A model generated the notes under the pieces. The model saw only the letters and a list, made by a program, of their open reading frames with translations, was not told where the DNA came from and did no database searches. The position numbers and the translations under genes are program-made. Positions 6,299 to 60,366 of a stretch of 64,000 nt of DNA are shown piece after piece. The DNA lies in contig AP026074.1 in assembly GCA_024349765.1 (NCBI GenBank), positions 248,001 through 312,000 of the forward strand, read 5' to 3'. Every line of letters starts with the position of its first letter. Position 1 is the first letter of the stretch. The DNA comes from Streptomyces nigrescens (GTDB taxonomy: Bacteria > Actinomycetota > Actinomycetes > Streptomycetales > Streptomycetaceae).

Positions 6299-7216
6299 AT
6301 GTCCGGCGATATGTTCACCACTCCGTACGAGGTTCTGGACGAGCGCTTCCGCGCCGGGAGGTGCGCCAACGGCGACGCACGGCTGGAGCGGCTGTACGCG
6401 GACTGCCGCTGGGCCGAGGGGCCGCTCTATCTGCCCGCCTGGCGGCAGTTGATCTGGAGCGACATTCCCAACGACCGGCTGCTGCGCTGGGACGAGTCGA
6501 CCGGTGCGATCGGGGTCTTCCGCTCCCCGGCCGGGCACGTCAACGGCAACACCCTGGACCGCGAGGGCCGGCTGGTGAGCTGCGAGCAGGGCAACCGCCG
6601 GGTCACCCGCACCGAACCCGACGGCCGGGTCACCGTGCTCGCCGACCGCTTCGAGGGCAAGCGCCTCAACAGCCCGAACGACGCCGTCGTACGCTCCGAC
6701 GGCTCCGTCTGGTTCACCGACCCGGACTTCGGGATCACCAGTGACTACGAGGGGCACCGCGCCGAGAGCGAGATCGGCACCTGCGACGTCTACCGGATCG
6801 ACCCCTTCACGGGCCGGGTCCACCGCGTCGCGGACGGTTTCGGCGGACCGAACGGCCTGGTCTTCTCGCCGGACGAACGGCAGTTGTACGTCGCCGACAC
6901 CCGGGCCCGGCACATCCGCGTCTTCGACGTGCGGGAGGACGGCACCCTCTCGGACGGCAAGGTCTTCGCGGAGCGCACCGACGGCGGCTTCGACAACATC
7001 CGCTTCGACGACCAGGGGCGACTGTGGGCCGCCGCGTTCGACGACGGCGTGCACTGCTACGACCCCGACGGCACCCTCATCGGAAGGCTCCGCGTGCCCG
7101 AGCCGGTCTCCAACATCGCCTTCGGCGGCCCCAAGAACAACCGGCTGTTCATCACGGCGACCACCTCGCTGTACTCGCTCGTGATGTCGGTGACGGGTCT
7201 GCCCCGGGTGCTGTGA
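6299..7216 (+). CDS. SMP-30/gluconolactonase-family hydrolase
   Basis: A 305-residue six-bladed beta-propeller of the SMP-30/gluconolactonase/LRE family, metal-dependent enzymes that open sugar or other lactones. Family landmarks are CRWAEGPLYLPAWRQLIWSD (substrate/metal Glu in the first blade), KRLNSPNDAVVRSDGSVWFT with the conserved Asn-Asp, and GPNGLVFSPDERQLYVADT. The ATG at 6299 is favoured over 6293 because GAAGGG directly abuts the latter. There is no signal peptide, so the enzyme is cytoplasmic. The divergent Lrp regulator may control it; the natural lactone is not known. Confidence 0.85.
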   Translation: MSGDMFTTPYEVLDERFRAGRCANGDARLERLYADCRWAEGPLYLPAWRQLIWSDIPNDRLLRWDESTGAIGVFRSPAGHVNGNTLDREGRLVSCEQGNRRVTRTEPDGRVTVLADRFEGKRLNSPNDAVVRSDGSVWFTDPDFGITSDYEGHRAESEIGTCDVYRIDPFTGRVHRVADGFGGPNGLVFSPDERQLYVADTRARHIRVFDVREDGTLSDGKVFAERTDGGFDNIRFDDQGRLWAAAFDDGVHCYDPDGTLIGRLRVPEPVSNIAFGGPKNNRLFITATTSLYSLVMSVTGLPRVL

Positions 7217-58438: not shown

Positions 58439-58540
58439 ATCGATGTATCGACTCCTGTCGGGCGTGGTGCCCGCGGGTCGAAAAGCGTTCGAGAGTTCGA
58501 GGTCTGTGGGATATGTTTCTGCTGTTCGAAGGGGGACGAA

Positions 58541-59272: not shown

Positions 59273-59309
59273 CGCCGGCCGCTACCTCCTCGGCCGAGGT
59301 AAGCCGCTA

Positions 59310-59349
59310 CCTGGTCGGCTGGCGCAAGCCGATTCCTGGTCGGCTGGCG
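59310..59349. repeat. Direct repeat of 15 bp
   Basis: CCTGGTCGGCTGGCG occurs at 59310-59324 and 59335-59349, 25 bp apart, just after the stop of the gene at 58541. Confidence 0.8.
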
Positions 59350-59375
59350 ACGGCCGCGGGTAGCATCCATGATCG

Positions 59376-59397
59376 CCCCCGCGTGCGAGCGCGGGGG
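59376..59397. terminator. Hairpin, probable terminator of the gene at 58541
   Basis: A perfect 8-bp stem, CCCCCGCG with CGCGGGGG, and a 6-nt loop separate the protein gene from the tRNA-like region. Confidence 0.7.
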
Positions 59398-59448
59398 TGC
59401 GCAACAGGCACGGGCCGGATTGAGGACCGGTCCATGTCATGAGCGCAA

Positions 59449-59583
59449 GCTGAAACTGAAGTTCAGCCTGAAGAAGCGGTTCGCAGTGAAGGTTCGAGTC
59501 CTTCCCCCGGCACCACGGGCCGGGGTAGCCCAACATGGCAGAGGCACACCGTCTCAATCTCAGACTCTCGCTCCAGCTTCAGC
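59449..59583 (+). ncRNA. Permuted tRNA-like RNA 1 (3' half before 5' half, CCA encoded)
   Basis: Order on DNA: anticodon 3' strand GCGGT (59476-59480); T stem GAAGG and CCTTC around a TTCGAGT loop (59488-59504); acceptor 3' strand CCCCGGC (59505-59511); A-CCA (59512-59515) plus CGG, a 7-nt linker; acceptor 5' strand GCCGGGG (59519-59525), fully complementary; T8-A9; D arm GCC...GGC with GG in the loop (59528-59545); anticodon 5' strand ACCGT (59548-59552) followed by CT. Acceptor and T stem abut as in real tRNAs. The flanks 59449-59461 and 59571-59583 can pair (11 of 13). Maturation and function are unknown. Confidence 0.7.
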
Positions 59584-59610
59584 ATTGCCGCCGATCGCCG
59601 GATCGACCGG

Positions 59611-59714
59611 GGACGGACGAACGCCGTCGGGTGCGAGTTCGACTCTCGCCTGCACCTCTTCACGGTGCGGTAGTTTCAACGGAAGAACACGACGGCCTGA
59701 TGACTGATCCGTCC
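59611..59714 (+). ncRNA. Permuted tRNA-like RNA 2 (3' half before 5' half)
   Basis: Same design as RNA 1. Anticodon 3' strand GCCGT (59623-59627), 5-nt variable region, T stem GCGAG and CTCGC around TTCGACT (59633-59649), acceptor 3' strand CTGCACC (59650-59656), 7-nt linker TCTTCAC, acceptor 5' strand GGTGCGG (59664-59670, one G-T wobble), T8-A9, D stem GTTT/GAAC with GG in the loop (59673-59688), anticodon 5' strand ACGGC (59692-59696) followed by CT. The flanks GGACGGA (59611-59617) and TCCGTCC (59708-59714) pair. No CCA is encoded here. Confidence 0.7.
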
Positions 59715-59755
59715 TCTTAAACGCCGCCGGCGTGCGCAATTGGGTGGCATCCCCA

Positions 59756-59789
59756 GGGGCCCGGGAGCTGGATACGACTCCCGGGCCCC
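59756..59789. terminator. Strong terminator after the tRNA-like pair
   Basis: A perfect 12-bp stem, GGGGCCCGGGAG with CTCCCGGGCCCC, and a 10-nt loop close the region downstream of RNA 2. Confidence 0.9.
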
Positions 59790-60366
59790 GCCACGTTGTC
59801 CGCCCCACGGTGCCTGCGCGTATCGACCGCGCCCGGGATCGTAGCCACCGAGACGTGGATCTCGCGCGGGCGGTTGAGTAGCCACCATGCGGTAGGGGTG
59901 GTCGTGTCGCTATGACCAGGGCGTGTCCGACGGGTTGCGTATCGGTGTGTGCGTGTGCGCCTCAAGTAGCCTAGTGCGCTTGAGAGTTGGTGCGTCGGTG
60001 CAGCTCGTGCACCATGCTCTACGCTCGTTTTCGCCCGTGCGGCAGGAGGACGTGACGGCGCGACGGCAAACTTCGAACGAGCGCACTCCCTTGCGCATTT
60101 GCCCATTACCCCATTGCCCCTCGCCCGGCCTGCGCGAAAGCGGGCGGACGTCGACCTGTTGGCTGGCTCATCACACCGTAGGTGTGGCACAACCGGACCG
60201 GTTCGTGCCCGGCCGGCGGCACAAGATCCCGGCGAGGCCCGGCGAGGTCCACCAGGGCCGCCCATACCGTACTGCCGGAACCCTGTGCGCGAGCTTTGCG
60301 CACAACTTCAGCCATACGGTAGGAGTTTGGCCTCCAGGCAGGGTTGAGCGGAGAGAGGACAATGCG
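59790..60366. other. 577-bp intergenic region upstream of the small protein/peptidase pair
   Basis: No convincing gene. It contains several small inverted repeats: CTCAAG-N12-CTTGAG (59961-59984), CACACC-GTA-GGTGTG (60172-60186) and TGTGCGC-N7-GCGCACA (60284-60304). These could be regulatory sites for the operon at 60367. Confidence 0.55.

Follow-up and report, generated by a model that had tools for sequence, protein, structure and literature searches.

The window analysed here is a stretch of 64,000 nucleotides from Streptomyces nigrescens (AP026074.1 of assembly GCA_024349765.1, positions 248,001 to 312,000, forward strand), and all coordinates are counted from its start. It carries a gene, single-copy in this genome, for a protein of the DUF7873 family, which matches the PF25283 profile with 407.5 bits (E 2.8e-122) against a Pfam gathering score of 27. 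Downstream lie two units in which the parts follow the order T arm, acceptor, D arm (59488-59545 and 59633-59688). Judged from sequence comparison, both units are modules of one structured RNA, predicted to occupy approximately 59374-59805 on the 3' side of the DUF7873 gene (Table 1).

The extent of this RNA follows from DNA similarity between the window and 80 DUF7873 loci. Similarity begins near 58500, is seen in 7 of the 80 loci at 59290-59330, in 50-59 at 59340-59440 and in 75-80 at 59450-59770, and then drops to 14 loci at 59800 and one at 59810 before disappearing by 59820. The gap between gene and RNA in Streptomyces is about 60 bp long and unconserved. At the 3' end, GTGGC (59744-59748) and GCCAC (59790-59794) flank the 3' hairpin and appear by eye able to pair, and several phage copies have TTGAG-containing hairpins upstream, also seen by eye. 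The RRYTSA repeats (59448-59474) and their phage counterparts are well kept and show an alternating K/R-L pattern in one frame, being neither clearly paired nor clearly coding; no pairing was established for this region 5' of module 1, where the structure is poorly resolved.

Table 1. Features of the DUF7873 gene and the adjoining RNA, in window coordinates
Feature	Position	Strand	Basis or remark
DUF7873 gene, 243 aa	58541..59272	+	GTG start inferred from alignment; open frame from 58403
Whole conserved RNA	59374..59805	+	ends inferred from loss of similarity
5' hairpin CCCCCGCG/CGCGGGGG	59376..59397	+	by eye; similar in 14/18 aligned loci, i.e. all outside one subgroup; in MFE fold
Second hairpin, loop ATTGAGGA	59412..59433	+	by eye; missing in 4/18 aligned loci (one subgroup)
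RRYTSA hexamer repeats (AAGCTGAAACTGAAGTTCAGCCTGAAG)	59448..59474	+	
Module 1 anticodon-like stem, 5' side	59476..59480	+	pairs with 59548-59552; by eye in window; permutation test 0/2000
Module 1 T arm	59488..59504	+	descriptor, covariation
Module 1 acceptor 3' strand	59505..59511	+	descriptor, covariation
Module 1 acceptor linker ACCACGG	59512..59518	+	second base C in 38/39 relatives, length variable
Module 1 acceptor 5' strand and T8-A9	59519..59527	+	descriptor, covariation
Module 1 D arm	59528..59545	+	descriptor, covariation
Module 1 anticodon-like stem, 3' side	59548..59552	+	as for 59476-59480
Conserved inter-module motif TCAGACTCTCGCTC	59560..59573	+	
Closing helix, 5' side	59596..59601	+	pairs with 59727-59732; two-sided changes at 6/6 pairs, 92.1% of cells paired
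Module 2 basal helix, 5' side	59609..59617	+	pairs with 59708-59716; two-sided changes at 9/9 pairs, 86.8% of cells paired
Module 2 anticodon-like stem, 5' side	59623..59628	+	pairs with 59691-59696; by eye in window; permutation test 0/2000
Module 2 T arm	59633..59649	+	99.5% of cells paired
Module 2 acceptor 3' strand	59650..59656	+	99.6% of cells paired
Module 2 acceptor linker TCTTCAC	59657..59663	+	second base C in 37/39 relatives
Module 2 acceptor 5' strand and T8-A9	59664..59672	+	RNAalifold alignment
Module 2 D arm	59673..59688	+	96.3% of cells paired
Module 2 anticodon-like stem, 3' side	59691..59696	+	as for 59623-59628
Module 2 basal helix, 3' side	59708..59716	+	RNAalifold alignment
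Conserved TTAAACGCCG, then closing helix 3' side (59727-59732)	59717..59732	+	
3' hairpin, GGATAC in loop	59756..59789	+	type seen in 32/39 diverse elements

Permuted tRNA-like layout

The original prediction described the two units as circularly permuted, and this layout is correct. Its 7-bp acceptors (59505-59511 with 59519-59525 and 59650-59656 with 59664-59670), 5-bp T stems abutting them, T loops TTCGAGT and TTCGACT, T8-A9 and D-loop GG are all present as described. Three further details stood in part. The 7-nt linkers between the acceptor strands occur in both window units but range from 4 to more than 30 nt in relatives; ACCA follows unit 1 in the window, but NCCA beyond the acceptor is found in just 20/39 (unit 1) and 17/39 (unit 2) diverse relatives; and pairing of the outer flanks is real and conserved for unit 2, where it forms the basal helix, but for unit 1 a conserved helix is unsupported in relatives. 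That such geometry would hardly arise by chance is borne out by a descriptor that runs from the T arm through the two acceptor strands (3' strand first, linker between) to T-A/G and a GG-bearing D arm. Searched over both strands of the window it matched exactly the two units, and over one strand each of 50 first-order random sequences of 64 kb it matched nothing. The overall anatomy is real and far beyond chance.

Neither ARAGORN on the window DNA nor Rfam at gathering score reports a tRNA at either unit, and ARAGORN makes no tRNA call on the units in native DNA order. When the halves are rejoined in tRNA order, as had been proposed for scoring against shuffles, ARAGORN calls a tRNA in 131 of 225 joins for unit 1 and 99 of 225 for unit 2, against 0 of 900 shuffles for each. 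These calls speak for circularly permuted tRNA genes, each unit being cut and religated into a working tRNA, as do the T8, the D-loop GG (both required by the descriptor) and an anticodon-like stem after the D arm in relatives. Permuted tRNA genes occur in algae and archaea, and the order of halves is the same here. Unlike those genes, the new RNA has extra conserved structure beyond the tRNA part, and its anticodon is not defined: with both units the anticodon that ARAGORN assigns shifts with the join chosen, so that the mark of a permuted tRNA gene, a defined anticodon after joining at fixed sites, is not seen. The units moreover sit in one RNA whose flanks are also conserved and which has covarying helices outside the tRNA part, and each of 59 Streptomyces genomes holds a single copy tied to DUF7873. 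The single RNA with its further conserved parts, the undefined anticodon, the variable linkers and the tie to DUF7873 together leave the claim of two permuted genes spliced to tRNAs unsupported, and we hold it to be very unlikely.

Conserved fold and acceptor linkers

Covariation was assessed from 95 candidate two-unit pairs. Removal of identical spacers left 83; L108 was then excluded for its long spacer, and one pair from L061 and two from L178 as spurious, which left 79, of which 39 remained at below 88% similarity. These 39 elements and the window make up alignment A3; alignment A4 has 35 rows, including the window, and omits L139, L153, L176, L182 and L067. Applied to the module 2 half in 40 diverse rows, RNAalifold recovered five helices unaided, namely the T, acceptor and D helices and the basal and closing helices that enclose module 2. 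Two-sided (compensatory) changes occur at 29 of its 31 pairs, and 94.0% of cells are paired. Shuffles reach 62.8 +/- 0.9% and slid structures 38.9-43.3%; the structure counted here was taken from the alignment itself. Compensatory changes in relatives, which the original prediction had named as a check, are accordingly found in the T, acceptor and basal helices of module 2. A separate covariation scan of the 39 elements placed its top 28 column pairs entirely within the T, acceptor and D stems of both modules, the module 2 basal helix and the long-range closing helix, the last contributing one pair.

Outside these helices, the anticodon-like stem after the D arm has support of a statistical kind: the longest helix of each element's own flanks averages 5.38 bp (module 1) and 5.31 bp (module 2), against 4.43 and 4.48 bp with permuted partners (0/2000 permutations each), and by a hand count the best helix lies at the expected place in 20/39 and 22/39 relatives respectively. 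Of the 39 diverse elements, 32 have a 3' hairpin of 11-14 bp whose loop contains GG[AC]TA. The minimum free energy fold of the window RNA is more stable than 100 shuffles (z -4.8) and in each module retains the T arm and acceptor. Degenerate tandem tRNA genes could imitate the order of T arm then D arm, and tandem tRNAs do score on the YrlA model and on our own model of the RNA (R1, below), but here the acceptor strands that pair and co-vary lie within one unit, and the random sequences gave no match. This origin, or chance, was rejected as already contradicted by the covariation within units in the 40-row alignment, and its probability is negligible.

The acceptor linkers have a pattern of their own. 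Their second base is C in 38/39 (module 1) and 37/39 (module 2) relatives, the third is C or T in 33/39 and 38/39, and 17/39 and 28/39 end in T, so that cutting like that of tRNA ends is possible. The two-piece (permuted) tmRNA likewise has the 3' part of its tRNA-like domain ahead of the 5' part and a loop linking the two acceptor strands. By the same route, RNase P and tRNase Z would cut both linkers of the new RNA, leaving a non-covalent RNA of three pieces with open acceptor ends that might be charged. The linker bases just described, the NCCA frequencies and the preference of RNase P for U before its cut count towards such processing. Set against it are the variable length and remaining sequence of the linkers, the presence in module 2 of T (29/39) or G at the would-be discriminator, and the lack of any acceptor pair fixed across relatives in the module 2 alignment. 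The new RNA also departs from two-piece tmRNA in having two tRNA-like modules and no established tag frame, and linker cleavage is in its case a candidate step. A multi-piece RNA of this kind seems to us unlikely.

Linkage to DUF7873 in Streptomyces and phages

The Streptomyces-type loci considered are the best 80 of at least 534 relatives by DUF7873 protein (79 Streptomyces and one Streptantibioticus). In 78 of them the descriptor detects one or more units downstream of the gene, on its strand, and in 43 it has two or more matches; its two misses, L078 and L084, match the RNA model with 112 and 105 bits, giving a unit or model match in 80/80. The covariance model, R1, represents the module 2 half; because the window is itself a row of A3 its own R1 score is not independent, and genomes outside A3 are relatives of its rows. 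Run with stricter filters over 121 sampled Streptomyces genomes, R1 gave full-length matches of at least 58.6 bits in 59, the next best among the matches listed having 54.4 bits, and the 58.6-bit line was drawn after viewing those matches. The weaker matches listed were mostly partial, and those inspected were units at TROVE loci or tandem tRNAs. DUF7873 is present in 59 of the 121 genomes, and the two lists are identical (p 5e-36), with one RNA copy tied to DUF7873 in each. The linkage between RNA and DUF7873 is strict in the sampled Streptomyces; co-regulation alone could account for it. Across the phylum, DUF7873 occurs in 6 of 246 sampled genomes, all six Streptomyces. Among 14 control genomes, Deinobacterium chartae is the sole carrier of DUF7873 and also the sole carrier of TROVE.

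The surroundings of the pair are variable. Four neighbour genes from the window were sought in the 80 loci (67 with full flanks) and none recurs. Among the 67, 33 have no long upstream flank in common with another locus and 26 no long downstream flank. Each remaining locus has flanks in common with 1 to 12 more, and synteny is thus partly kept within subgroups. The sharp borders of similarity, the non-recurring neighbours and the unshared flanks together indicate that DUF7873 and the roughly 430-nt RNA make up a cassette found at several places.

DUF7873 is also present in 73 phage records. Nine loci chosen from 40 listed of these were examined; Vibrio phages, which account for 29 of the 73 records, are not represented among the nine. 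The pair of RNA and DUF7873 occurs in phages of Arthrobacter, Gordonia, Rhodococcus, Pseudanabaena, Rhizobium and Klebsiella. Eight of the nine loci have an unannotated gap of approximately 410 to 1160 bp after the DUF7873 gene, and in phage Ziko (L105) small genes are annotated 3' of DUF7873, one of which overlaps the match to the RNA model. At least one unit is found in eight loci (L102-L109), by descriptor or, for L105, by the model at 91.9 bits. The ninth, from Microcoleus phage My-WqHQDG (L110), has no unit at the expected site. There, directly 3' of DUF7873, lies a HEARO RNA (L110:4941-5150, 129 bits). A weak full-length model match of 34.9 bits at 6798-6923, beyond HEARO, may be what remains on the far side of that inserted element.

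Among IMG/VR sequences, represented by the best 80 of 256 loci, the descriptor detects a unit within 1000 nt downstream in 68, and the model, run on 56 loci from all sets and on the window, adds seven downstream with at least 63 bits (L126, L133, L148, L155, L161, L163 and L165). Two placements are unusual: in L172 (2287-2422, 80 bits by model) the RNA lies upstream of DUF7873, and in L168 (4444-4583, minus) on the opposite strand from it. These bring the total with a unit or model match to 77/80. Neither descriptor nor model finds the RNA in L123 or L156, nor does the descriptor in L124, a near copy of L123. The RNA thus adjoins nearly all viral DUF7873 genes examined, in a search that covered the surroundings of DUF7873 only.

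In nearly all loci the RNA lies close downstream of the gene and shares its strand, as would also be expected of a cis-acting 3' element of the DUF7873 mRNA whose tRNA-like modules govern how the transcript is processed or decays, and in L187 the repeat-bearing part begins right at the stop codon. The size and ornate fold of the RNA and the unconserved gap that separates it from the gene in Streptomyces tell against such an element, and the placements in L172 and L168 argue for an independent RNA. A cis-acting role therefore appears improbable to us, about on a par with the multi-piece RNA.

Relation to YrlA and a possible role

YrlA (RF02553), the Y RNA that serves Ro60 (Rsr), is the nearest known system. 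It has a permuted module of T arm, hairpin-closed acceptor and D arm set on a stem, a layout found in both units; it is encoded near a dedicated protein gene; and Ro-like proteins occur in phages too. At a permissive Rfam threshold YrlA is the best match to both units, with 28.3 and 26.5 bits, and five of seven Streptomyces TROVE loci scanned (L095, L096, L098, L099 and L101) have, upstream of TROVE, one or two YrlA-like units that are separate from the RNA linked to DUF7873. These points favour ordinary YrlA RNAs serving Ro60. The two scores are nevertheless far under the gathering score of 69, and a tandem tRNA-Asn pair in the same genome exceeds both with 38.8 bits; the modules are as similar to tandem tRNAs as to YrlA, so that this likeness leaves kinship with YrlA unsupported. 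In addition, profile and protein searches found no TROVE (Ro60/Rsr) protein in the S. nigrescens genome, the same profile being positive in 67 of 121 Streptomyces. TROVE occurs in 36 of 59 Streptomyces genomes with DUF7873 and 31 of 62 without (p 0.27), showing no association. From the 89 phage and IMG/VR records, 50 with DUF7873 were taken, fragments among them, and 7 carry TROVE. The architecture outside the modules differs as well, there being two modules in a larger RNA, a closing helix around module 2 and 5' and 3' hairpins, no requirement for Ro60, and a linked gene that encodes DUF7873. We consider ordinary YrlA distinctly unlikely; the best reading of the sequence comparisons is that the RNA would work without Ro60, with which DUF7873 is not associated across Streptomyces.

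Rfam 15 at gathering score returned no family over the RNA in the window, the nine phage loci and two Streptomyces loci, and none at E <= 0.001 over the RNA in nine IMG/VR loci. GOLLD and ROOL, described from phages and prophages as large RNAs of elaborate structure that often lie close to tRNA islands (PMC12286853), resemble the new RNA in setting and scale. The Rfam searches over these same loci gave no GOLLD or ROOL match. Neither is known to contain permuted tRNA modules. A literature search for DUF7873 or for this RNA found no paper, and the Y RNA survey of Chen et al. (2014) may list some members.

We regard it as probable that the RNA is a tRNA-mimicking non-coding RNA of about 430 nt, independent of Ro60 and located downstream of DUF7873 on the same strand, with DUF7873 as its likely partner. 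DUF7873 may bind or hold the conserved non-tRNA core, while the two tRNA elbows, each formed of T loop and D loop, would dock on or occupy factors that recognise tRNA. Candidates include a nuclease such as PNPase, tRNA-modifying enzymes, a tRNA-cutting toxin and the ribosome, and the whole would act as a tether or decoy RNP, in the manner of Ro60 and YrlA but without Ro60. The protein is not basic (pI 6.5; median 6.3 of 50), and a fold search with its AlphaFold model (mean pLDDT 89, pTM 0.62) gave no confident relative, for which reasons RNA binding by DUF7873 is put forward here as a proposal. Precedent comes from YrlA, whose tRNA-like domain reportedly binds PNPase and undergoes modification by DusA and TruB, according to a source that names tmRNA and YrlA as the best-known bacterial tRNA mimics (PMC8394870), and which another suggests is a competitive inhibitor of a tRNA nuclease (PMC7790460). 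Y RNAs are also reported from mycobacteriophages (Chen et al. 2014, RNA 20:1715, as given in PMC12282133). Seven of the nine phage loci, taken with flanks of 4 kb, include a tRNA gene, as do 47 of the 80 IMG/VR loci, which measure up to 5.7 kb; these are raw counts, uncorrected for background. A phage context with tRNA genes nearby fits the engagement of tRNA factors.

With moderate confidence, then, this would be a large structured RNA of a new class, with a dedicated partner protein, presenting two tRNA elbows at once in a Ro60-free RNP common to Streptomyces and phages of unrelated hosts, its linkers possibly cut to open tRNA-like ends. The comparisons point to an undescribed RNA-protein partnership built on tRNA imitation. 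An RNA with two tRNA-mimic modules and a tightly linked protein gene is widespread in Streptomyces and cultured phages, which supplies a concrete hypothesis for DUF7873, a Pfam family without known function, opens Ro60-free tRNA mimicry to testing, and may be relevant to the role of phage tRNA islands against tRNA-directed defences.

Two phage observations may be added. In Gordonia phage Phendrix (L103) a tmRNA match of 89 bits without annotation lies at 2063-2591, 1.4 kb upstream of DUF7873. Of two Arthrobacter phages of about 193 kb each, Mimi carries DUF7873 and no TROVE and Atuin a Ro-like protein, the two systems possibly being alternative solutions.
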